Shown here in pieces: positions 2,197 through 30,806 of a DNA stretch of 64,000 nt. The notes under the pieces are model-generated. The model had not been told where the DNA came from. It ran no database searches and saw only the letters and a list, made by a program, of their open reading frames with translations. The position numbers and the translations under genes are program-made. The stretch's first letter is position 1. Each line of letters starts with the position of its first letter. Source of the DNA: Cystobacter fuscus (lineage in GTDB: Bacteria; Myxococcota; Myxococcia; Myxococcales; Myxococcaceae); NCBI RefSeq assembly GCF_002305875.1, contig NZ_CP022098.1, positions 2,294,001-2,358,000 on the forward strand. Direction: 5' to 3'.

Positions 2197-5100
2197 CTAC
2201 GGAGAGGCCGTCGCGCGGCCAGGAAACCGCCGCTTCCACCAGCCGGTGAGGTGGGGGTTCAGCGTGAGGGCCCGCTCGAGGTCTTCGCGGAAACCTGTCT
2301 CCCCAGCCTCTTCACGCAGGCTCGCGCGCAGCAGCAGCGCGTCCGCCCAGAGGGGGCGCGCGGCCAGCACCTCGTCCGCCAGGGCGAGGCCACGCTTCAG
2401 GGCGGAGTGCGGCTCGAGCCCCGCCTCCCGCCGCCACGCGCCCCACTCGCGGCAGAAGTGGCCGAAGGCGATGCGGTAGTCCAGGCGCCGGGGCTCCAGC
2501 TCGAGCGTCTTCTCGAAGGCGCGGGCGGCCTCCTCGAAGTCCTCGGCGCGCGCCTGCCGCTGGCGAGCCAGCCAGCGGGCCCGCAGTCCACGCACCTCGC
2601 CCTGGACGAGCCAGGCCAGGGGCTCCTGGGGGCCGCGCTCGAAGGCCTGGAGCAGGGCCGCCTCGGACTGCTCCAGGCTCCGCTGTGGAGTCCACCCGTG
2701 CTCCAACTCGAAGGCCGCCCGGCGGGCATGGACCCGGGCCAGGCTGGCCGGGTAGTACGCGCCGCCCGGGAGGAGCTCGCTGGCCTTCAGGTAGGCCGCT
2801 TCGGCCGCCTGGAGCTCGGGGCGCGGATCCTCCCCGGAGAGCGCGCGGTAGGTGGCGCGCTCGGCCTGGGCCTCGCCAACGTTGTGGTGGCCAAAGCCCT
2901 GCTGGGGGGCAACCTCGATGGCTTGACGCGCGGCCTGCCCGGCCTGCTCGAGCCAGGGGAGGGGAGCGCCGCCGTGATCCCAGGCCTCCCGCGCCTGCTC
3001 GATGAGGACCGCGCTCCTGCCGTTGTGGAGCTGCGCAATCCGGGCGTTGATGCGGATGCCGCCCTCGAAGGACTCCAGGGCGGTGGTCAGGTCGGGCCGG
3101 GCGTCTTCTCCCTGGCTCCTGCGCCGCTGGGCGAGCTCCAGGTGCAGCGTGCCGCCCAGGAAGTAGGACACATAGTTGCCCGGATTGAGCTTCCGGGAGG
3201 TGTCGAGCGCGGCCTGGGCCTGCTTCAGGTCCTCCAGGGGAGCCGGGGCGCGCGGGTGGGTGGCGCGGGTGCGGTAGGCGATACCCAGGTTGATCCACGC
3301 GTCCGGCAGGCGCTCATCGAGGCGGATGGCCTCGCGGTAGGACGCGATGGCCTCGCCACGGTGGGGCAGGGAGTCCTCCCCCTTCTCGTCCTCGTAGTCC
3401 GCCCAGATCTTGAAGACGAGGCCGCGGGTGGCGTGGAACTCGTAATCCTGCTCCTTGGGGGGAATGGTGCCCAGCAGCTCCACGGCCTGCTGGAGCGGCT
3501 CGTGAGGGTCCAGGCTCCGGGCCTGGAGGGAGCGGGCTCGGCGCCAGAGGCTCTGGACCTGCTCCATGCGGGCCCGGGGCGGCTCGGGCACCAGGCGCAT
3601 GGCGGTGCGCGCGGCGGAGAGGGCCTTCTGGAGGGGCTCCTCCACGTCGAGGCCCCGGCTCATGCGGTACTCCGCCAGCCGGTTGTAGAAGTACGCCTCC
3701 AGCACGCGGGCCAGCCCGAAGTCGGGGTCCGCCTGGAGCGCGCGGGCGACGGCCTCCATCCCATGGGTGAAGGGAGGCATGACGTCCCCCTTGCTGTAGA
3801 GCTCCATCACCATCACGGTGTACTCGAGCCTCGCCAGAGCCCTGTGGACCTCCGGCACGCTCTCGCCCGCGGCGGCGGCGGTGGCGTAGGCGCGGCGGCC
3901 AGCCTCGAAGTCGGCCAGCGCGCCCTCACGGTCGCCCTGGTTCCAGCGGCGGGTGGCCCGGGCCTCGAGAATCTCGCCCCGCAGCAGGGGCGCCTCGAAG
4001 AACCACGGGAGGCGGTCCTTCATCGCCTCGAGCTGGGCGAGGGCTTCGTCCAGCCGATCCTCGTAGAAGGCCAGCAGCGCCGCCACGTACTCGGGAGAGG
4101 GCACGTCGGCGCCCTGGCTCTGGCGCAACCAGTCCAGGGCGGGGGCGCGGTACTGGCGCTGGATGTCCTGCTTGCGGGACTCGCGGTGCTCCGGGTCGCG
4201 CAGGCGCTCGGCCTCCAGGAGCTGCTCCTGGTACAGATGTCCCATCACGAGGGCCAGCGACCAGGCGACACGGGGCTCGCGGAAGCCGTGGCTCCAGGCG
4301 GCCTCCAGGTGCTCGCGGGCCAGGACCACGTCGCCGAGCGCCAGGGCGCCACGTCCCAGCGCGTAGTGGCCGGAGCCCACGGCCGGCGCGCCGGCCTCGT
4401 GAATCTCTGCCTCCAACTCACGCATGCGGCCGCGGAGGGCCTCGCGGTCGGCGCGGGTGTCATGGAGCTGGGAGAGGCCGGAGTAGCGGGCCAGGGCCTC
4501 GATGCGCTCGACGCGCTCGGTGAACCGGCTCGAGAGGCGCTCGCGCCGGGTGGCCTCCTGCCGGGTGCGCGAGACCTGGACGACGGCGAGTGCCACGGCC
4601 AGCAGGGCCGCGGTGGCCACGCCCACCACGAGGCGGTGCTTGCGGAGCCTCTTGCGCAGCCGGTACCCCAGGCCGGTGGGGCGCGCCCGCACGGGTTCGC
4701 CACCGAGGAAGCGGTCCAGCTCCTCGGCCAGGGCGCGCGCCGAGTCGTAGCGGGCCGAGCGCTCCTTCTCCAGACACTTGAGGACGATGGCTTCCAGGTC
4801 CACCGGCAGGTCCGGGTTGAGCGCCCGCGGCGGGCGGGGCTCGAGGGTGGCGATGTTGCTGAGCACCTCCAGTCCGTTGCCGCCGGGGATGGGGGGCTGG
4901 CCCGTGAGCAGGGTGTAGAGCGTGGCGCCCAGGCTGTAGACGTCGGCGCGCCGGTCCAGCCGGGACACCTCGCCGCGGGCCTGCTCGGGGGCCATGTAGT
5001 GCGGGGTGCCGAGCACGGCGCCCGTGGCGGTGCTGGCCTGCTCCCTCCAGTCGCGCGCCAGCCCGAAGTCCATGACGTAGGGCTTGAGGCGGCCATCCTC

Positions 5101-5595
5101 GGTGCGCTCGACGAGGATGTTGCCGGGCTTGAGGTCACGGTGGATGAGGCCGGCCCGGTGGGCGGCGTGGACGCCCTCGGCGACGTCTCGCAGCAGCAGC
5201 ACCGCCTGCTCCACGGTGAGCTGGCTTGCGAGCTGGTTCAGCGGGTGGCCGTCCACGTACTGCATGGCGATGAAGGCGCGCCCCTGGACTTCCCCCACCT
5301 CATACACTTGGCAGACGCGCTCGTGCTCGACACGGGCCTGGGCCCGAGCCTCGGAGAGGAAGCGCTGGGTGAGCCCGGTGTCGCCGCCCCGGACGAACTT
5401 GAGGGCGGCATGGCGGCGCAGCCGTGGATCATACGCGAGGAAGACCTGGCCCATGCCGCCCTGGCCGAGGAAGCGCACGCCCTGGTAGCGCTCCCAGCCG
5501 GGCACGGGGAAGACGGGAGTCTCCGGAGGAGGAGCCCCAGGAGTGGGCGGGCCCTCCAGGGTGGATGCGCCCGCTGCTCCATCCGCCACGGTCAT
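2197..5595 (-). CDS. Hanks-type Ser/Thr protein kinase with TPR-rich C-terminal region
   Basis: The protein has 1132 residues. The kinase domain spans about residues 37-300 with glycine loop GQGGMGQVF, Lys66, catalytic loop HRDLKPGN (152-159), DFG (176-178) and APE (202-204), so all catalytic residues are present. A basic stretch and one membrane segment follow at about 320-345. The remaining ~780 residues are alpha-helical repeats of TPR type, placed outside the cytoplasm if the membrane segment is single-pass. The ATG at 5595 is chosen because the kinase domain begins soon after it, although the frame stays open much further upstream. It probably senses an envelope partner through the TPRs. 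The region upstream is a transposase remnant, so it is likely transcribed alone. Confidence 0.93.
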   Translation of the reverse strand: MTVADGAAGASTLEGPPTPGAPPPETPVFPVPGWERYQGVRFLGQGGMGQVFLAYDPRLRRHAALKFVRGGDTGLTQRFLSEARAQARVEHERVCQVYEVGEVQGRAFIAMQYVDGHPLNQLASQLTVEQAVLLLRDVAEGVHAAHRAGLIHRDLKPGNILVERTEDGRLKPYVMDFGLARDWREQASTATGAVLGTPHYMAPEQARGEVSRLDRRADVYSLGATLYTLLTGQPPIPGGNGLEVLSNIATLEPRPPRALNPDLPVDLEAIVLKCLEKERSARYDSARALAEELDRFLGGEPVRARPTGLGYRLRKRLRKHRLVVGVATAALLAVALAVVQVSRTRQEATRRERLSSRFTERVERIEALARYSGLSQLHDTRADREALRGRMRELEAEIHEAGAPAVGSGHYALGRGALALGDVVLAREHLEAAWSHGFREPRVAWSLALVMGHLYQEQLLEAERLRDPEHRESRKQDIQRQYRAPALDWLRQSQGADVPSPEYVAALLAFYEDRLDEALAQLEAMKDRLPWFFEAPLLRGEILEARATRRWNQGDREGALADFEAGRRAYATAAAAGESVPEVHRALARLEYTVMVMELYSKGDVMPPFTHGMEAVARALQADPDFGLARVLEAYFYNRLAEYRMSRGLDVEEPLQKALSAARTAMRLVPEPPRARMEQVQSLWRRARSLQARSLDPHEPLQQAVELLGTIPPKEQDYEFHATRGLVFKIWADYEDEKGEDSLPHRGEAIASYREAIRLDERLPDAWINLGIAYRTRATHPRAPAPLEDLKQAQAALDTSRKLNPGNYVSYFLGGTLHLELAQRRRSQGEDARPDLTTALESFEGGIRINARIAQLHNGRSAVLIEQAREAWDHGGAPLPWLEQAGQAARQAIEVAPQQGFGHHNVGEAQAERATYRALSGEDPRPELQAAEAAYLKASELLPGGAYYPASLARVHARRAAFELEHGWTPQRSLEQSEAALLQAFERGPQEPLAWLVQGEVRGLRARWLARQRQARAEDFEEAARAFEKTLELEPRRLDYRIAFGHFCREWGAWRREAGLEPHSALKRGLALADEVLAARPLWADALLLRASLREEAGETGFREDLERALTLNPHLTGWWKRRFPGRATASP

Positions 5596-7188: not shown

Positions 7189-8580
<1,392 letters not shown>

Positions 8581-18393: not shown

Positions 18394-20115
18394 TCACGCC
18401 GGCTGGAGGAAGCGTCCGTCCACGAGATGCTCGATGACCTCGCGCGCCGAGTGGGGGTCGAGCTTCACCTTCGTCCCCAACTGCGTCACCGCGTGGGAGA
18501 CCGTCGTCGGGCGCTCGAAGGCGGCCAGGGTGGCCAGGAGGATCCGCCCGTCCTCGCCCTGATCCAGCGTCGGGTCGGCGAACCGTCGCGGGCTGAGCGA
18601 CGGTGCACAGGCCAGGCCCGTTCCGTTCACCGACCGGACGACGGTCACCTGTTCCCGCGCCACCTTCGCGGGGACCCGATGTGCTCCCAACCAATCACCG
18701 AGCTCGAACCGAAGCGTCGAGGGCGCGGTGTTCTTCAGTCGCGTGCCTCCGTTGAGTGAGATCCGCTGCTTCTTCTCTTCGTGCTTCTTGGCGAGGGCAT
18801 CCACGTGCTCCGACGTGCGCTGCACCGCCCGCTCGAGTGCCGCGTCACGGAAACGCAGCATCGGCACGGACGACACATCGCCGGGCTCGCGCTGCTCGAA
18901 GTACTCGAGGAACTCCGTGAACGTGCGCGCTTCGCTCACCATGTCGAACCGCGCGGGGTGCTCGGTGGCGAGCGCCCCGGGCTGCGCTTCGAGCCGCTGA
19001 TAGCCCACCAGGCAGTCGAGACCGATGACCCGCTCCACCAGGCGCACTTCCTCCTTGAGCGTGGCCGCGCTGGCGAAGGGCAGACCCGCGATTCCAGAGA
19101 CCTCGACGTCCAGGTTCTCGTGGCGGCGGCAGCCGTCGATGATCTCCAGGAGCTGCTGATCCGAGGCACACGGCTTGAGCAGACCGCGGCGCATCTGCTC
19201 GTGCCGCTGCTGTTCCGAGAAGCAGCCGATGTCGAGCACCATGTGGACGTGCTCGAAGGTCTGGGCCAGGGCGTCGATGAGCTCCATCCGGGCCACCCCC
19301 CACAGGAAGTACATGCAGGAGTGGCGTGAGAGATCGACCCCCGCCCAGGTGCTTTGCAGGAATGCCGCCGAGCTTCCCGAGAAGTCGTAGCGCAGCTGCC
19401 ATGCCCGCTGGGCGATCTCCTGGTGGTCGCGGCGCACGCTCTCCTCGGAGCGCAGGAACGGCTTCGCGCGTCCGAAGGCCGCCTTCTGGTTGCCGCGGGC
19501 CCCACCACAATAGAGGCAGTTCTCGCCGCAGCCCTTCCCGGGCGCGACCCACCCGGAGAAGGCATGGCGATCCTGGTGGCTCAGGAAGATGTCGTCGAAG
19601 TGCGAGTAGTAGACGTCCTCGCTGTTCGTGGCGCCTTGCACGTACTCCAGGGGCAATCGCCGTGGGTTGCCGTTCGGACCCACGGTGACGCAGTTGGGCG
19701 GGGAGGGGTCGCCCTCGCAGAGCGCCAGCAGTGGCCGCTCGCCGTCGCCCAGGACGATGTGATCGATGCAGTCGAACGCGTGCAGCTCCCGCCACCAGTA
19801 GGAGGCGGTGTTGCCGCCCACGACGATCCGGATGCTGGGGTCGATCTCGCGCAGCGTCCGGGCCAGGAGCAGCGCGCGGTGGACGTGGTGGAACCACTTG
19901 AGGCTGATGCCGACGAGCCGGGGGCGCACGCGGGCCACCAGGGCCTCGAGCGAGCGAGCCACCTCGTCCTCGCTCTGGTCCCCGTCGTAGAGCCGGACGA
20001 AGGCCTCGATCCCGCCGCGTCGCAAATAGCCCGCGAGATAGAGGATGCCGCAGGTGGCCTCGCCGATTCCGGCGCCAAGAAGGAGGACTGGAGAGAGGAC
20101 GCGACGGCCATTCAT
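18394..20115 (-). CDS. Cobalamin-binding-type radical SAM enzyme, orphan
   Basis: The protein has 573 residues. Residues 1-135 form a B12-binding-like Rossmann domain with SLKWFHHVHRALLLARTLRE, IVVGGNTASYWW and HIVLGDGERPL; it lacks the DxHxxG cobalamin histidine motif. The radical SAM motif CGENCLYC (Cys196, 200, 203) begins the barrel. The last ~90 residues look like a winged-helix or peptide-recognition segment (TTVSHAVTQLGTKVKLDPHS). Such enzymes methylate or rearrange unactivated carbons in natural products or RiPPs. No precursor or transporter gene is adjacent; upstream lies a 346-bp gap. The ATG at 20115 is the only good start. The substrate is unknown. Confidence 0.82.
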   Translation of the reverse strand: MNGRRVLSPVLLLGAGIGEATCGILYLAGYLRRGGIEAFVRLYDGDQSEDEVARSLEALVARVRPRLVGISLKWFHHVHRALLLARTLREIDPSIRIVVGGNTASYWWRELHAFDCIDHIVLGDGERPLLALCEGDPSPPNCVTVGPNGNPRRLPLEYVQGATNSEDVYYSHFDDIFLSHQDRHAFSGWVAPGKGCGENCLYCGGARGNQKAAFGRAKPFLRSEESVRRDHQEIAQRAWQLRYDFSGSSAAFLQSTWAGVDLSRHSCMYFLWGVARMELIDALAQTFEHVHMVLDIGCFSEQQRHEQMRRGLLKPCASDQQLLEIIDGCRRHENLDVEVSGIAGLPFASAATLKEEVRLVERVIGLDCLVGYQRLEAQPGALATEHPARFDMVSEARTFTEFLEYFEQREPGDVSSVPMLRFRDAALERAVQRTSEHVDALAKKHEEKKQRISLNGGTRLKNTAPSTLRFELGDWLGAHRVPAKVAREQVTVVRSVNGTGLACAPSLSPRRFADPTLDQGEDGRILLATLAAFERPTTVSHAVTQLGTKVKLDPHSAREVIEHLVDGRFLQPA

Positions 20116-20261
20116 GAGTGGAAACCCGACCTTCAGAACGCCGGGAGTATAGACGGGGCTCCTCCTGGAGTCGCCGTTCGTGGGGAGGCCTCGCCGGGCT
20201 GCTACCCGCGCTAGCTGGCGGTCGGAACCTCGCGCTTCACTAGCGCTCCGAAGTTGGAGCA

Positions 20262-20298
20262 GGTGTCGAAGAACTCGTGCCGACACATCGTGCCCTAC
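20262..20298 (+). repeat. Direct repeat copy 1, left boundary of GH2-SDR segment
   Basis: This 37-nt sequence, beginning GGTGTCGAAGAACTCGTGCC, recurs at 24707-24743 in the same orientation with 32 of 37 bases equal. It contains GTGTCG...CGACAC as an inverted pair. An 11-bp arm, CCGACACATCG (20280-20290), is matched by CGATGTGTCGG at 20316-20326. It lies in the 346-bp gap (20116-20461) between the radical SAM gene and the GH2 gene. Only short open frames (33 codons or fewer) are seen elsewhere in that gap. Confidence 0.6.
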
Positions 20299-20461
20299 CC
20301 GGAGTGCGGATTGCGCGATGTGTCGGTGGAGCAGTGAACATCTCAGCCTTCGAGAAAGACGGCTGGGCGGGGGGAGGAAGATTGAGCGATGCGGTTCTCC
20401 GCGGATCCTTCCATGCTGCGCCTGTCCATCACGTGCACTGAAAGACTGGGATCCGGGGCTC

Positions 20462-23400
20462 ATGAACGATAGGAAGCGAATGGGTAGGAATGCGCCAGGA
20501 ATGTGGGCTGCCTGGCTGGTGTGTCTGGGACTGGGATGTGTGGCGAACCAGCCGGTGCCCCCGAAGGGCGAAGAGCCTACTCCCCCTGCCACGGATCAGA
20601 GCCCTGGCAGGCGTGTGGACTTCGACAGGGATTGGAAGTTCGTCCTGGTCAACCCCGAGGGAATCACCGACCCGAGCGGTTCCTATGCGACCGCGCATGA
20701 GCCGTCTTTCGATGACTCGTCGTGGAGGAAGCTGAATGTTCCTCACGACTGGAGCATCGAGCGGGACCCCAGCCCGGGGCCGGGGACCACCAGTGGGACG
20801 GGCTTCTTCCAGGGGGGTCTGGGCTGGTACCGGAAGACTTTCACCCTCCCGTCGTCGATGGCGGGAAAGAAGCTCTCCATCGAATTCGATGGCGTGTACA
20901 TGGACTCCTACGTCTATGTGAATGGTGAACTGGTGGGCAACCACCCCTATGGCTACACCGCCTTCGACGTGGACCTGTCCTCCCGGGTGTACACGGATGG
21001 GGTGACGCCCAACGTCATCGCCGTGAAGGTCCAGAACCAGCTTCCGAGCAGCCGGTGGTACTCCGGCAGTGGCATCTACAGGCACGTCCACCTGACGGTG
21101 ACGGACCCCATCCACGTGGTGCGTTGGGGCACCTTCGTCACCGTCCCGGAACTCGAGAAGACGGTGGGAGAGGGCTACGCGAACGTCCGCGTGCAGACCG
21201 ACGTGGTCAACGAGGGCGGCACCCCGAAGGACGTAGAGGTCCGCTCCCTGGTGAAGGACGCCAACGGGAAGGTCGTGGCGCAGGTCACGTCACTCGCCAC
21301 CGCGCTGGGCCCGGCGCCCCAGCGGCTCACGGCCACCCTCCGGGTCGAGCACCCCACGCTCTGGTCGTTGGCGAATCCCTACCGGTACACCCTGGAAACC
21401 GCCCTCGTCTCCGAGGGCAAGGAGGTGGACACCACCTCCACCCGCTTCGGCATGCGGTATTTCCGCATCGATCCCAACGAGGGCTTCTCGCTCAACGGCG
21501 AGTCCACGAAGATCCAGGGAGTCGATCTGCACCATGATCTCGGCGCCCTGGGGGCGGCCGTTCACCGCGATGCCCTGGTGCGGCAGATGACGATCATGAA
21601 GAGCATGGGGGTCAACGCCCTCAGGACCGCGCACAACCCGCCTGCTCCCGAACTGATCGACATCTGCGAGGAGATGGGCATCGTCATGCTGGTGGAGGCC
21701 TTCGACTCCTGGAGGACCGGGAAGAACCCGTATGACTACGGGCGCTTCTTCGATGAGCACAGTGATGCCGACATCAAGGAGATGGTGAACGCCGCCAAGA
21801 ACTCTCCCGCGGTCATCATGTGGTCCATTGGCAACGAGATTCCGGATTCGACCTCGGAGGCGGGTCTGGCGATGGCCCAGCGACTGGTCGAGGACATCAA
21901 GTCCATCGACACCTCCCGGCCCATCGTCATCGGCTCGGACAAGTACCGGCGCGTGCCTGCTCCGGAGTCGCCGGCCGCGCGCATCCTCGGGCTGCTGGAT
22001 GGCCTGGGTCTGAACTACAACACGGCGAAGTCGGTGGATGGGCTCCGGGCCGCGTTTCCGGGCAAGTTCCTCTTCGAGTCGGAGTCCTCGTCGGAGACGT
22101 CCACCCGGGGCGTGTACCAGGACCCCCACCTGCTGAACACCGGTGAGAACTACACCCCGGGCAAGCGGGGCACGTCCTCCTACGACAACAACCTGGCCTC
22201 CTGGACCATGAGTGGGGAGTACGGCCTGAAGAAGGACCGGGACCGGAAGTTCTTCGCCGGCGAGTTCCTCTGGTCGGGCATCGACTACATCGGCGAGCCG
22301 ACCCCGTACGACGTCTATCCCGTGAAGGCCTCGTTCTTTGGCGCCGTGGACACGGCCGGCTTCCCCAAGGACATGTATTACCTGTTCAAGAGCCAGTGGA
22401 CCCAGGAGCCCATGGTCCATCTGCTTCCCATGAACTGGACGGACCACGCGCCTGGCCAGCCCGTGGCTGTCTGGGCCTATGCCAATGTCGATACGGTGGA
22501 GCTGCTCCTGAACGGCCAGTCCCTGGGCGAGCGGAAGTTCAGCCACAAGAAGACCCTGGATGGCCGGGCGTATCTGGAGACGGACGAGGCCACCGGTGAC
22601 GACAAGACATTCACCTCGGGCCCCTTCCCGGGCAGCTACACCAGTCCCAATGGCAGTGCCGGCAAGCTGCACCTGTCCTGGAGCGTGCCGTTCGCGCCGG
22701 GAGAGCTGGTGGCGGTCGCCAAGAAGGACGGCGTGGAGGTGGCCCGGGACGTGCTGCGGACCGCCGGAGCGCCGAACACCTTGAGGCTGACCCCGGACAA
22801 GACGGTCATCACCGCGGACGGCAAGTCGCTGGTGTTCGTGACGGCCGAGGTCGTGGACTCGAAGGGGGTGATGGTTCCCAGCGCCGCGAACCTGATTCAC
22901 TTCCAGGTGACGGGCGGAGCCCTGGTGGGCGCCGACAACGGGCGTCAGGAGAGCGCGGAGAACTACAAGGCCTCTTCCCGGACGGCCTTCAACGGCAAGG
23001 CGCTGGCCATCATCCAGTCCAGCGTCACCTCCGGGCCCATCACCGTCACCGCGTCATCGGACGGGCTGACTCCGGGCTCCACGACGATTGTCTCCGAGGG
23101 CGGGAGTGGTTCCGTGGCTGGCTCCGCGGCGACCTCGACTCCGGTGGGCCCGGCCAGGAGCGTGGGGACCGTGCCGGCAGCGGATCCGGAAATCCCCACC
23201 GCTGACGCGAGCTACTCGGGCTCTCCCCAGTCGGTGCCCGCGGCGATGCTCGACGGGAACAAGACCTCGGGGGGCTGGTCGAACTTCTATGAGAAGGCGG
23301 CCACCGCGCTCCTGCCCGCGGTGAGCCAGGCCAACGCGTCGGACTGGGTCTCGCTCAAGTGGCCCCAGGCGCGGTCCCTCGATTCCGTGACGGCCTGGTT

Positions 23401-25641: not shown

Positions 25642-26814
25642 CTAGCGCCTCTCCTCGTGTGCACCGCCCCGGGTGTCCTGGGCCGGGTCGAGGGCGGACC
25701 AGCGCGATGCCAGGACGGCGAGCAACTCGACCATGCGCGGATCGAAGGTCTCGAGGTATGGCGCGAGCCGTGCGCCGGCGATGCCCTGGCTCAGTCGCGA
25801 CAGGATGACCCGGCTCTCGGACTCCTCGACGAGGGCCGTGACCAGCTCGCGCTGATAGAGGGCAAGCTCCTCGACGTCGAGCGGGTCGGGGAGTGGCGTG
25901 GTGCTGGCGTCGCGCACCGGACTGACGGGCGTTGCACTGGCCTCGGTCACCACTTCGACCACGGCACGGTACTGGGCGCGCCACTCGTCTCGCACGGCCC
26001 TCGACTCGAGGGTTTCGCTTCGTCGTTCGACGATGACGACCTCGCAATGGGGACAGAGGTCGAGCGCCCGGCGGAGCAGGGACAGCACCGGCGGCAGCAG
26101 GGGTCCGTCATGACTGTCGAGCCGGACGGGCCTGGGGTCTCCGGCGCGGAGCGCACGAGCCCAACTCCCACCCGAGACGTGGATCTCCCGGACGCACTCC
26201 AGCGGATGGGTTTCGAGCAGGAGTTCTGGTGGCAGGCCGGTGTTGATCGCCTGGGTCCACACGTTGTGGATGTCGAGCACCAGGAAGCCGCCGGTGGGGG
26301 TCAGGATGGCATCGAGAAACGCACCCTGGTGGAGGGCATCGGAGGGCGCGAGTGTGTTGGCCAGCACCTCGAGGCCCACGGGACCGCCGGTGGCGGCGCG
26401 GAGCCTCCCGAGTCGGTCCCGGCCGATGTCCACGGCGGCGGCGCAATACGGCAGGGGCAGCATGGTGCTGCGGGTGAACGGCCCCGCGGCGGTGAAGCCG
26501 AAGTGCTCGGAGACGTGGCGGTAGGGTCTCTGGCGGCACTCCTGGGCGAGGCGCTCGAGCCATGCGTCCTGCCGTGGCTGCCAGTCGGCGGTCAGCACCG
26601 ACAACCACACGCCGTGCCCGTACAGGGCTCCCTCCTCCGCATAGAGGTCGAGCATGCGCTCGGTCCAGTGGGGGGGCGGAGTCCTGGCCGAGAATCCCCA
26701 GGAGTCATCGATGTCCCACTCGAGCGCGGTGACCAGGCCTTCGGCGAAGAGGGGCCGTGCCGCCTCGCGGAAGGCGTCGTCGGTCAAGAGATTCAAACCC
26801 ACGCGAGGAGGCAT
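25642..26814 (-). CDS. DUF692/MNIO-family iron enzyme, probable RiPP maturase
   Basis: The protein has 390 residues. Residues 1-290 match the DUF692 TIM barrel of multinuclear non-haem iron oxidative enzymes. Candidate metal ligands are SEHFGF (His104), LDIHNVW (Asp181, His183, Asn184), REIHVSGG (His212), DSHDGP (Asp233, His235) and VIVERR (Glu263). The family modifies cysteine or aspartate in precursor peptides, as in methanobactin. A helical extension at about 315-375 may replace the separate partner protein that such enzymes usually need. The gene starts 18 bp after the 51-residue peptide gene on the same strand. Peptide binding and product are inferred. Confidence 0.85.
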   Translation of the reverse strand: MPPRVGLNLLTDDAFREAARPLFAEGLVTALEWDIDDSWGFSARTPPPHWTERMLDLYAEEGALYGHGVWLSVLTADWQPRQDAWLERLAQECRQRPYRHVSEHFGFTAAGPFTRSTMLPLPYCAAAVDIGRDRLGRLRAATGGPVGLEVLANTLAPSDALHQGAFLDAILTPTGGFLVLDIHNVWTQAINTGLPPELLLETHPLECVREIHVSGGSWARALRAGDPRPVRLDSHDGPLLPPVLSLLRRALDLCPHCEVVIVERRSETLESRAVRDEWRAQYRAVVEVVTEASATPVSPVRDASTTPLPDPLDVEELALYQRELVTALVEESESRVILSRLSQGIAGARLAPYLETFDPRMVELLAVLASRWSALDPAQDTRGGAHEERR

Positions 26815-26832
26815 GGGGGTAGCTCGTCGTGC

Positions 26833-26988
26833 TCAGCGGCCCGCGTCGGTGACGCGCTGGGTGCTGGACTCTGGCAACGCCATCATCATGCCGCAGGCCG
26901 GACAGGGAGTCGGGCGGGCATTCCTTTCCTTGGTGTTGTTCGCCATGTCGAGGAGCTGGGTGGCTTGCTCACGGAGGTTCTGATTCAT
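26833..26988 (-). CDS. Candidate RiPP precursor peptide (51 residues)
   Basis: The peptide begins MNQNLREQATQLLDMANNTK, a probable helical leader, and then carries a core-like PCPACGMMMALPESS with the only two cysteines (Cys29, Cys32). The ATG follows AGGAAAGGAAAAG. It sits 18 bp upstream of the MNIO gene and should be co-transcribed with it. MNIO enzymes act on cysteines of such short peptides, so oxidation at CPAC is the obvious guess. The alternative is a small zinc-knuckle protein, because CPxCG is also half of a zinc ribbon. No protease or exporter is adjacent. Confidence 0.75.
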   Translation of the reverse strand: MNQNLREQATQLLDMANNTKERNARPTPCPACGMMMALPESSTQRVTDAGR

Positions 26989-27185
26989 GGTTCTTTTCCT
27001 TTCCTGCTTGTGGGGGAGCCGGATGCGTGGCACCTGCCCGGCTCCTCGGGAAAGGTGGAGTCATTGCTGGCCGGATGTGCTGAAAAAGAGGCGAGCGTTC
27101 CGTCAGGCGGCAGGAGAGAAGCAGGGTCTCTTCATTGGCTTCCGGCTTTCCACCAAGCGCTCGGCGGGACTCCCGGCGCGAGGGT

Positions 27186-27272: not shown

Positions 27273-27980
27273 TCACGTTTGCCCGCGCGAGTCCGGAGGG
27301 GAACGCTGGTACTCCTCCACGTAGGTTTTCAGCAGCTCGGCGGCTCGGGAGTGCTCGCCTCCACACTCCATCAGCAATCCCTCTCCGTACCACGTCAACC
27401 CCTCCCGGAAGAGATCTGGACGGCGCCAGCCAAGCCAGCGCTCGAACTGGTGCCACTGTTCACCGGCCTCGGACTGGAGCGCTCCGGTCATGAATCCCTC
27501 GAGCAGGAGTTTCAGGTTGTCCAGGTCCGGCTGCCCATGGTCACTCACGGTGGCCAGGGACTCGGAGGGGGTCGAGCACCAGTGGACCACCGACTCGAGG
27601 ATGGTGTGGGGCTTCACTTGCGCACCTGGCGTTTCCTGGCTGACCGTGCGCTCTGCCGCGGGCAATGCCTGGTACTCCTCCACGTAGGCCCGCAGGCGCT
27701 CAGCGGCTCTGGCGTGTGTCTCGCCGCAGTCAAGCAAGAGCCCCTCTCCAAACCACGTCACTCCTTGCCTGAAGAGCCCTGGATGGCACTTGCCGAGCCA
27801 GAGTTCGAACTGACGCCATTCCTCATGAGACCGCTGCCGAGGGTCCGCGCACTCGAATCCCGCCAGGAGCAGGAGCAGGTTGTGAAGGTCTGGCTGCCCA
27901 CGGTCACGCGCCGTCAAGAGGAACATATATGGGCGGGAGCACCAGCGGAGCACTGCGTCGAGAATCGTGTGGGAAGACAT
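27273..27980 (-). CDS. Probable immunity protein with an internal tandem duplication
   Basis: The protein has 235 residues. It consists of two ~104-residue copies (about 4-107 and 125-228), each starting HTIL-x2-V-x2-WCS and ending in a (T/R)-x-YVEEYQ helix, with shared segments GQPDL-x-NL, W-x-QFE-x-WLG and EGLL-x-(D/E)CG. They are joined by a linker of about 17 residues. It has no signal peptide and no known domain. It begins 7 bp after the stop of a lipoprotein with a papain-like toxin domain, which is the standard position for the cognate immunity gene. The assignment rests on context. The duplication may let it bind two toxin surfaces or two toxin variants. Confidence 0.6.
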   Translation of the reverse strand: MSSHTILDAVLRWCSRPYMFLLTARDRGQPDLHNLLLLLAGFECADPRQRSHEEWRQFELWLGKCHPGLFRQGVTWFGEGLLLDCGETHARAAERLRAYVEEYQALPAAERTVSQETPGAQVKPHTILESVVHWCSTPSESLATVSDHGQPDLDNLKLLLEGFMTGALQSEAGEQWHQFERWLGWRRPDLFREGLTWYGEGLLMECGGEHSRAAELLKTYVEEYQRSPPDSRGQT

Positions 27981-28721: not shown

Positions 28722-30806
28722 TCAAGCAGAGGCGGGCTGCTGCTCGGCCGGCGTGCTCCCGGAGAGCACCGCCCGGGCCGAGTCGATGGCCTCGTGCGTG
28801 CCGGCCAGCGCGAGCACGTCTCCCTCCCGCAACTGCTCGTCCGCGGTGGGCACGACGACCTTGTCCTCGCCGCGCCGGATGGCGAGCACCGTGGCGCCCG
28901 TCATTCCGCGCAGGTTGAGCTCGGCGAGCGTGCGCCCCACGGCGGCACTGCCGGACTCGAGCCGCACCGGCGTCGGCTCGCCGAGTCCGGGCAGGATGGC
29001 GTGCAGGGTGTCGAGGCTCTCGGCATGATGCGCCTGGGGTTTGCCCCGGGACTGGGACGCGAGCGCCTCGACGATGACCTGGGAGCCCGCGCGCACGTGC
29101 CCCTGGAGGTTGGTGGCGCTGCGCCAGAAGCCCATGCCGAGTACCGCGAGCAGGATCAGCAGCACCGCCGCGCCGAGGAATCTGGGCAGGAAGGGCTGGG
29201 TGATGGCGACGAGCGGCGCGCCCACGCCCAGCACGCTCGCCAACTGGAGCGTCACCACGAGCGCGCGCCGGGGGGCCGCGGCCCGGTCCAGACGGCCCGT
29301 CACGGAGGGGAAGGCCGTCTCCGCCAGCAGCGTGCCCAGCGAGCTCGCGAGCCGTACCACGCCCACGCAGAAGGGGGTGGCGAGCATGGCGGCCAGGAAG
29401 ATGACGAGCCAGCGCGCCACGGTGGCGCCCAGGCCGCTGCGCAGCTCCAGCGCCGCGCTCATGCGCCCGAGGAAGAGCGAGGTGCCGATGATGATGGCGG
29501 CGAGCAGGGCCGCGTCCAGGAGCATCAGGCGCACCTTGGAGCGGATCTTCGTGCCGGCGGTCTGGCGCGGCGGCGCGTTGCGCAGCTCCTCCACCCAACT
29601 GCCATAGAGCGCCGCGAAGGTCTGCAAGGGCTTGGGCAGCTTGCGGTCCACGTAGTTGGCCACCGGCCCCGAGGCCCGGATGAGGAAGGGCGTGGTGAGG
29701 GTGGTGATCGCCGACACGGCCACGGCCACCGGGTAGAGGAAGCTCCCCGTGGCGTTGAGCGACAGGCCCAGGCCCGCGATGATGAAGGAGAACTCGCCAA
29801 TCTGCGCCAGGCTCAGTCCCGACTGGATGGCCGTGCGCGTGCCGCTGCCCGTGAGGAACACCCCCAGCGCCACCCCCACCAGCTTGCCCAGGATGACCAC
29901 ACCCGTGAGCACCGCCACCGCCGCCCAGTTCTCGGCGATGAGCCCCGGATCGATGAGCATTCCCACCGACACGAAGAAGATGGCGGCGAACATGTCGCGT
30001 ACCGGCTGCACCAGGTGCTCGATCTCCTGCTCCTCTCCGGACTCGGCCACGAGCGAGCCCGCGAGGAACGCCCCGAGCGCCACCGAGTAGCCGAACGCCT
30101 GCGCGAGCAGGGCGATGGCGAAGCAGATGCCGATGCTCGCCACCAGCGTCGTCTCCGGGCGCTTGAGCCGGTGCACCGCGCGCACCGTGCGCGGAATGAC
30201 CATCAGCCCCACCACCACGAGCCCCACCAGGAAGAGCGCCAGGCGGCCCACGGTGAGGGTGAGCTGGCCCGCGGACAGTCCCGCGCCCGTGGAGATGGCC
30301 GTGAGGGTCGCCATGAGCAGGATGGCGATGAGATCCTCCACGATGAGGATGCCGACGACGATCTCCCGCAGCTTGCCTTTGATTCCCTGCTCGTCGAACG
30401 CCTTGGCGATGATGGTGGTGCTGGAGATGGCGATGATGGCGCCCGTGAAGATGCTCTCCCGGGACGTCCACCCGAAGGAGCGGCCCACCACGAACCCCAG
30501 CCAGATCATCAGGCTGCACTGGATGATGGCGGTGAGTCCCGCGGTGAATCCCACCTTGAGCAGCTTGCCCAGGCTGAACTCCAGCCCGAGCGAGAACATG
30601 AGCAGGATGACCCCCAACTCCGACAGCGTCTGGACGATGGTGGGGTCCGCCACGAGGGGGATGGGCACGTGGGGCCCCATGATGAGCCCCGCGATGATGT
30701 AGCCGAGCACCACGGGTTGCCGCAGCCGCTGGAAGATGACGGACGTCACCGCCGCGACGCACAACACCGTCGCCAGGGCCTTGAGGAAGTCGTGTGCATC
30801 GTGCAT
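28722..30806 (-). CDS. KefB-type monovalent cation:proton antiporter (CPA2) with TrkA-C domain
   Basis: The protein has 694 residues. About 12-13 membrane segments form the CPA2 exchanger domain, with LGYIIAGLIMGP, LGVILLMFSLGLEFS, IAISSTTIIAKAF and LGAFLAGSLVAES. A second hydrophobic block (about 425-560) and a C-terminal TrkA-C domain (SAAVGRTLAELNLRGMTGAT ... GDVLALAGTHEAI) follow. It should export K+ or Na+ in exchange for protons, gated by a ligand at the C-terminal domain. The TrkA-N nucleotide domain of classical KefB is not evident. The gene stands alone. Confidence 0.9.
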   Translation of the reverse strand: MHDAHDFLKALATVLCVAAVTSVIFQRLRQPVVLGYIIAGLIMGPHVPIPLVADPTIVQTLSELGVILLMFSLGLEFSLGKLLKVGFTAGLTAIIQCSLMIWLGFVVGRSFGWTSRESIFTGAIIAISSTTIIAKAFDEQGIKGKLREIVVGILIVEDLIAILLMATLTAISTGAGLSAGQLTLTVGRLALFLVGLVVVGLMVIPRTVRAVHRLKRPETTLVASIGICFAIALLAQAFGYSVALGAFLAGSLVAESGEEQEIEHLVQPVRDMFAAIFFVSVGMLIDPGLIAENWAAVAVLTGVVILGKLVGVALGVFLTGSGTRTAIQSGLSLAQIGEFSFIIAGLGLSLNATGSFLYPVAVAVSAITTLTTPFLIRASGPVANYVDRKLPKPLQTFAALYGSWVEELRNAPPRQTAGTKIRSKVRLMLLDAALLAAIIIGTSLFLGRMSAALELRSGLGATVARWLVIFLAAMLATPFCVGVVRLASSLGTLLAETAFPSVTGRLDRAAAPRRALVVTLQLASVLGVGAPLVAITQPFLPRFLGAAVLLILLAVLGMGFWRSATNLQGHVRAGSQVIVEALASQSRGKPQAHHAESLDTLHAILPGLGEPTPVRLESGSAAVGRTLAELNLRGMTGATVLAIRRGEDKVVVPTADEQLREGDVLALAGTHEAIDSARAVLSGSTPAEQQPASA

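Follow-up and report, generated by a model that had tools for sequence, protein, structure and literature searches.

A very probable ChrH-type MNIO RiPP unit of two genes, with an embedded CPACGMMM core, in Cystobacter fuscus

The chemistry of the ChrH family of MNIO enzymes and their precursor peptides was described between 2023 and 2025 (PMC10214503, PMC12636315). The chryseobasin precursor has the core CPACGMG (PMC10214503), and the structures of the ChrA and DybA products were shown by NMR (PMC10214503, PMC12636315). Both peptides undergo an O2-dependent four-electron oxidation, which is proposed to start at the second Cys of the core; the carbonyl carbon of this residue comes to lie between the next two amide nitrogens as a hydantoin, the thiol of the first Cys becomes bonded to the former beta-carbon of the second to give a ring, and the sulfur of the second Cys is left, free or methylated, on its former alpha-carbon (PMC10214503, PMC12636315). 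As reported for DybA/DybH, the peptide and the MNIO alone suffice, an action free of partner proteins (PMC12636315). The same source, a 2025 preprint, describes some myxobacterial precursors with an embedded CPACGMMM, and one such pair, Archangium ArlAH, when co-expressed in E. coli, gave a -4 Da product together with an S-methylated form, as judged by mass (PMC12636315). In the literature that we searched, the CPACGMMM string occurs in this preprint only.

Here we describe a gene pair of this kind in a 64,000-nucleotide stretch of the Cystobacter fuscus genome (contig NZ_CP022098.1, positions 2,294,001 to 2,358,000; hereafter the window). A precursor peptide gene (26833..26988, minus strand; an ORF of 51 amino acids with no evident signal peptide) lies upstream of the gene for a ChrH-subfamily MNIO (25642..26814, minus strand; an ORF of 390 amino acids), with 18 bp between the peptide stop and the enzyme start. 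From orthology, conserved ligands, a matching core and adjacency, which form the direct basis for its identity, we conclude with high confidence that the pair is a two-gene ChrH (chryseobasin-type) MNIO RiPP unit and the orthologue of Archangium arlA-arlH. An initial annotation had already placed a CPACG peptide gene of 51 codons 18 bp upstream of a DUF692 enzyme, as the ORFs and Pfam bear out (PF05114, E 1.2e-30, 107 bits against a gathering cut-off of 25). It had also held the core to be unlike any known core, a view that does not survive the CPACGMG of ChrA (PMC10214503) and the embedded CPACGMMM of myxobacteria (PMC12636315), and had proposed a new class with an unknown product, which we reject on the strength of the NCBIfam matches, with MNIO_ChrH as the best model for the enzyme, and by the literature, in which ArlAH products were seen by mass (PMC12636315). 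The pair is a new example of the published embedded-core ChrH branch and comes from a different genus than G004, one of two further genomes that carry an orthologous pair.

The peptide looks like a real gene and not a chance ORF, because orthologues of it precede the enzyme gene in G004 and in a second genome, G042, again with 18 bp between the two, because of its dN/dS and because its CPACGM codons match only once. The dN/dS of the enzyme is 0.24 against G004 and 0.18 against G042; the peptide, with values of 0.39 against G004 (51 codons) and 0.52 against G042 (48 codons), is under weaker constraint, as measured over about 50 codons and without error bars. The CPACGM codon pattern has a single occurrence in the 12.35-Mb C. 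fuscus genome, inside the precursor peptide gene, and a reversed-pattern control gave 0 matches in the same genome. Judged by its sequence, AGGAAAGG at 26998..27005 (minus strand) is a putative ribosome-binding site of the peptide gene. A simple consensus search for a promoter or terminator of the pair found none, a result that carries little information, and a PHROGs search gave no match.

Compared with the window, the G004 peptide and enzyme are 73% and 87% identical and those of G042 53% and 80%. The enzyme (E <= 1e-20) is present in three of the 96 genomes of the window's family, and the peptide in the same three. The peptide occurring without the enzyme, which the initial annotation had named as the mark of an ordinary zinc-binding protein, has its only candidate in G023, where a weak peptide match (E 0.0098) with an internal stop and without the enzyme is probably due to chance. 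Across 195 genomes of the phylum, full-length close enzyme matches were confined to these three; the other matches listed have at most 35% identity and lie mainly in the barrel, with the exception of a second piece in G004. This piece, on contig 52 of G004 (L019, ~7627-8256), is a decayed second copy that comprises enzyme residues 67-231 and the upstream region and from which the peptide and the enzyme start are missing. When contigs were searched with the single enzyme protein, 14 pattern matches and 0 relatives were obtained; a four-sequence alignment gave 266 relatives, the best 80 of which were kept. These add four myxobacterial genomes that were evidently not among the 195: two of Polyangium, with 58% identity in the best segment, and two others with 49-51%. 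Six plasmid records matched the enzyme, one of them across most of the protein. The best 80 of the 266 relatives and this last locus, from a Hymenobacter plasmid, make up the 81 loci compared below. As the initial annotation had advised, we looked for homologous peptide-enzyme pairs, which turned up, besides the orthologous pairs of G004 and G042, 76 of the 81 loci with a CxxCG peptide encoded in the 1.5 kb before the enzyme gene.

The best NCBIfam model for the enzyme, MNIO_ChrH (NF050165), matches at 1.3e-67 with 228.5 bits, below its equivalog cut-off of 600; a Chryseobacterium control enzyme scores 695 bits, and a DybH-type Hymenobacter enzyme, at 400 bits, likewise stays under the cut-off. 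Behind it come BufB (2.7e-25), HvfB (2.2e-17), ApyH and MbnB, the last with 11 bits (cut-off 325). The BufB and HvfB matches, and the fact that other MNIOs carry out such reactions, would favour a different reaction on the same peptide, for example one giving an oxazolone-thioamide or a thiooxazole for metal binding, but MNIO_ChrH matches far better, the orthologous ArlAH pair gave ChrH-type masses (PMC12636315) and the peptide shows the pattern of ChrA, in which two residues with free amides come after CxxCG (PMC10214503), which together make such a reaction very improbable. The assignment to the ChrH subfamily is further borne out by a tree of 51 enzyme rows, in which the window enzyme and 44 other ChrH-type enzymes stand apart, with support of 100/99, from six other MNIOs of the same genome that served as the outgroup and of which two are long-branched. 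The C. fuscus genome (G000) has eight MNIO-domain loci in all; six of them, none being that of the window pair, lie outside the ChrH subfamily in the tree. The window pair has three marks of this subfamily: the helical domain, the tree grouping and an adjacent CPxCGx core 18 bp upstream.

In the AlphaFold2 model of the enzyme (mean pLDDT 89, pTM 0.90), residues 314-373 form a helical bundle behind a TIM barrel. Among solved structures, Foldseek ranks entries of TglHI and MbnBC as the best matches to this model, with TM by target of 0.68-0.81. Projecting the nine TglH ligands given in PMC10880893 onto the enzyme predicts His67, His104, Glu149, Asp181, Asn184, His212, Asp233, His235 and Glu263 as iron ligands. 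Six of these nine were in the initial annotation's list, from which His67, Glu149 and Asn184 were missing and in which His183 was wrongly included: this position is not a ligand position. It holds His in all 45 subfamily rows, which comprise the window, G004, G042 and 42 of the 81 loci, whereas the six other MNIOs of the C. fuscus genome have Asn or Ala there. The nine TglH-type ligands themselves are kept in 45/45 subfamily rows and in 6/6 of the other MNIOs.

The C-terminal helical domain (residues 314-373; 25696..25875, minus strand) is the counterpart of the separate MelHc. Its AlphaFold2 helices span residues 314-330, 334-343, 345-349, 351-354 and 359-373 (pLDDT 89), in agreement with the helical extension that had been predicted from the sequence at the outset. 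A profile of this domain matches a separate downstream ORF at all eight loci with a short enzyme among those drawn from the best 80 of the 266 relatives, with E-values of 9e-5 to 4.5e-12 at the enzyme 3' end; since the profile was built from fused enzymes, its 73/73 matches to long enzymes are by construction. These eight loci comprise two from Polyangium, two from other Myxococcota and one each from Planctomycetota, Verrucomicrobiota, Cyanobacteriota and Melainabacteria. The separate helical ORF overlaps or adjoins the MNIO gene (L049, at 3989-4885 and 4878-5129; L050, L051, L053, L054, L059, L060 and L063). One enzyme cut by a contig end (L104) is also matched by the profile. In the passages of PMC12636315 drawn on here, the separate form is mentioned for Cyanobacteriota only. 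A single clade of all 37 fused enzyme rows was rejected (AU p 0.0078), as was a single fused clade without the fused Melainabacteria row L052 (AU p 0.0112), tests for which the grouping was chosen after the first tree and in which several rows, including the window's, have an odd amino-acid make-up. The rejection of one fused clade points to separate fusions of the helical domain, probably one in the window's group and another in Bacteroidota.

The only cysteines of the peptide, Cys29 and Cys32, lie in CPACG, and they are the likely site of modification, as the initial annotation had supposed. The core CPACGMMM (residues 29-36; 26881..26904, minus strand) is assigned from the sequence, with its chemistry carried over from ChrA, DybA and ArlA (PMC10214503, PMC12636315), and is predicted to form a ring between Cys29 and Cys32 and a hydantoin through the amide nitrogens of Gly33 and Met34. 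In a DNA alignment of the three orthologues, which is all that the conservation of these patterns covers, MNQxLRxxATxxLD is kept in the leader region (residues 1-28; 26905..26988, minus strand) and ALPxSSxxxVT in the follower (residues 37-51; 26836..26880, minus strand). The peptide does not end in CPxCGxG, as 18 residues follow CPACG, and its maximum 12-residue hydropathy before the core, a crude measure used without SignalP, is -0.19 and gives no indication of a signal peptide. The NCBIfam model ChrA_rel_RiPP matches residues 17-34 weakly (E 0.0022, 18.7 bits against a cut-off of 40), and the ChrA equivalog model NF050124 has no match in the window peptide, whereas a Chryseobacterium control peptide scores 117 bits against its cut-off of 50; the G042 and Polyangium peptides have no NCBIfam match. 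With both enzyme and peptide under the MNIO_ChrH and ChrA_rel_RiPP cut-offs, the pair is therefore not a chryseobasin system in the strict sense. CPxCG is also a common half motif of zinc ribbons, and the YacG model does match the peptide weakly (0.048), so that the peptide could in principle be an ordinary small zinc-knuckle protein, its place beside the enzyme incidental. The peptide has, however, a single CPxCG pair, the three of 96 genomes that carry it are the three that carry the enzyme, 76 of 81 further subfamily loci (from the best 80 of 266 relatives and the plasmid) have the CxxCG peptide within 1.5 kb upstream, and CPACGM occurs once in the C. fuscus genome; we regard this explanation as extremely unlikely.

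A GSSHHHHHH tag, presumably the one carried by ArlA, joined to the G004 peptide without its Met gives a computed mass of 6453.074. This is 0.004 Da from the ArlA [M+H]+ of 6453.07 (legend in PMC12636315), and it is from this mass, with the tag string assumed, that we equate the G004 peptide with ArlA. If G004 is indeed the Archangium of the preprint, the window's family would be the Archangiaceae / Cystobacterineae. Among 6624 peptide-tag combinations set against five published masses there was one other match within 0.02 Da, between a Chitinophaga peptide and the HymA mass, which is evidently chance; the other four published masses otherwise lack a fitting peptide, and the tag convention is not independently calibrated. 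For the three peptides of the window's family, chance agreement in mass is unlikely. Because the ArlA mass fits G004, whose pair is 73% and 87% identical to that of the window, it is very probable that the macrocycle of ArlAH is also the product of the window pair, and the reaction steps outlined above would transfer to it by orthology.

To place the window peptide among its relatives, we compared 79 precursors: 76 from the 81 loci, and those of the window, G004 and G042. The 1.5 kb upstream of the enzyme yielded no precursor at the remaining five loci (L054, L063, L077, L117 and L127); they were left out of the core counts, and four of them (not L077) are among the 40 tree rows labelled C-terminal. 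In 74 of the 79 (drawn from the best 80 of 266 relatives), the core ends the peptide two residues past CxxCG. The other five, from the window, G004, G042 and the two Polyangium genomes, have an embedded core with a follower, and their enzymes form one clade, all myxobacterial, with support of 100/99.7 in the 51-row tree. Hydropathy ahead of the core is also lowest in these five (-0.22, -0.19, -0.18 and -0.03, and 1.05 in G042), against at least 1.34 in the 74 precursors with a C-terminal core and an overall median of 2.44; on this crude measure they have no evident signal peptide, G042 being the least clear. An internal core and no evident signal peptide, together with a G042 core that lacks Pro and Met, are among the points that speak against a chryseobasin-type reading. 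The absence of a C-terminal core is no bar to the ChrH subfamily, as PMC12636315 names members with an embedded CPACGMMM, and the features of the ArlAH type, namely this embedded core, an orthologous enzyme and adjacency, are all present in the window pair. The embedded cores read CPACGMMM, except for CLACGRLQ in G042 and C[AM]ACGLVA in Polyangium. Bacteroidota and other loci likewise include cores that lack Pro at position 2 or carry R, L or K at position 6, and the G042 and Polyangium variants are therefore within the family's range. The G042 peptide (L018, 8513-8659) with its CLACGRLQ core stands next to an intact enzyme, so that nature provides in this pair a test of which core residues the enzyme requires.

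Tandem precursors, two to four before one enzyme, were seen at 12 of the 81 loci (best 80 of 266 relatives plus the plasmid): four each at L055, L058 and L093, three at L075, and two each at L052, L056, L059, L070, L072, L078, L094 and L126. Cores differ within the array in nine of these 12 (for example CGKCGKG, CEACGRG, CPGCGMG and CPPCGMG), suggesting that one enzyme may make a set of ring variants from mixed-core arrays. Plasmid NZ_CP095062.1 of Hymenobacter volaticus encodes, just upstream of a ChrH-type MNIO, a precursor of the DybA type (L048, 4776-4943) that resembles a lipoprotein, has CPACGMG at its end and is absent from the PLSDB gene table.

The surroundings of the pair differ among the three genomes. 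A blastn comparison of window positions 15001-38000 with the 16 kb surrounding each orthologue found DNA in common with G004 at 25682-27093 only (both genes and ~100 bp upstream) and with G042 at 25673-26913 only (the enzyme gene and the peptide gene up to the core). The pair is flanked by a PilA pilin and a two-repeat protein in the window, by metallo-beta-lactamase-fold and GNAT proteins in G004, and in G042 by a chemotaxis receptor and a protein kinase. The upstream neighbour in the window (27273-27980, minus strand) consists of two similar halves with no significant family match and lies outside the DNA shared with G004 and G042; farther off, 18394-20592 (minus strand) encodes a B12-binding, radical-SAM-like protein (TIGR04190-like, 71 bits, cut-off 500) with a CGENCLYC motif. 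The enzyme dS of 0.30 to G004 and 0.69 to G042 exceeds the rpoB dS (0.16 and 0.23, in the same order), and there is thus no sign of recent horizontal transfer among the three genomes; the distribution of the pair may reflect either an old transfer or repeated loss. Pfam scans of seven neighbouring window ORFs found no MNIO partner (DUF2063 or similar), protease or peptide exporter, in line with the partner-free pair initially described; one of the neighbours (28725-30806) is a Na/H-exchanger-type transporter. Nor did the scans find a protease or peptide exporter in two neighbours each of G004 and G042.

With an internal core and no evident signal peptide, the modified peptide should therefore either stay in the cell or need unlinked processing. 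The second course, in which an unlinked protease trims the peptide after the core and the product is exported with a C-terminal macrocycle, is compatible with the ChrH-type assignment; it would bring the peptide into line with the 74 of 79 precursors (from the best 80 of 266 relatives) that end two residues past CxxCG and with the export signals carried by ChrA, MelA1 and DybA (PMC12636315). Against it stand the lack of a protease or peptide exporter among the Pfam-scanned neighbours and the partial conservation of the follower in three sequences, which would be surprising in a tail that is thrown away, unless the tail serves in recognition, and we see such trimming as a serious possibility that falls somewhat short of probable. 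More tentatively, and with some doubt, we suggest that the embedded-core clade is a branch in which a secreted end-group was turned into an internal, cytosolic modification: the signal peptide would have been lost and a recognised follower gained, rings without proline and non-Met hydantoin residues (CLACGRLQ, CAACGLVA) would be tolerated, giving congeners beyond those described in the papers cited here, and the function would be intracellular, unlike that of ChrA and DybA.

As the class is already described, the main worth of the window pair as a ChrH-type unit is as a clean comparative case. New here are the confinement of embedded-core precursors with varied cores and no evident signal peptide to one myxobacterial enzyme clade (the window's family plus Polyangium) among the 79 compared, and a helical domain that Polyangium encodes separately and that probably became fused to the enzyme on separate occasions in Bacteroidota and in the window's group. 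The clade may part what the enzyme needs (CxxCG and the next amide) from the traits of Bacteroidota precursors (C-terminal position, Pro, Met and export signal), and it offers natural core variants for making congeners with a small, partner-free enzyme.

Among the described systems, ArlA/ArlH of Archangium is the most like the window pair, with an embedded CPACGMMM and a ChrH-type enzyme that is active on co-expression (PMC12636315); it comes from a genome other than the window's, the pair that fits the ArlA mass being that of G004. DybA/DybH of Dyadobacter shares the CPACGM core and the fused C-terminal helical domain, but DybA, unlike the window peptide, is a lipoprotein precursor with a C-terminal core and an unmethylated product (PMC12636315). 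ChrA/ChrH(I) has the CPACGM core, the MNIO family and, as predicted for the window, the ring and hydantoin in common with it, and differs in the signal peptide of ChrA, in the C-terminal place of its core and in a cluster that includes ChrI, ChrE and ChrP (PMC10214503). MelA1/MelH/MelHc of Melainabacteria has the same set of domains and the same core chemistry, yet its helical domain is separate and its substrate is a 34-kDa secreted protein (PMC12636315). MbnABC, the bufferins, the oxazolins and TglAHI share the MNIO fold with the window enzyme, and TglH its ligand set too, whereas these systems differ in their partner proteins, cores and chemistry (PMC12452194, PMC12636315).
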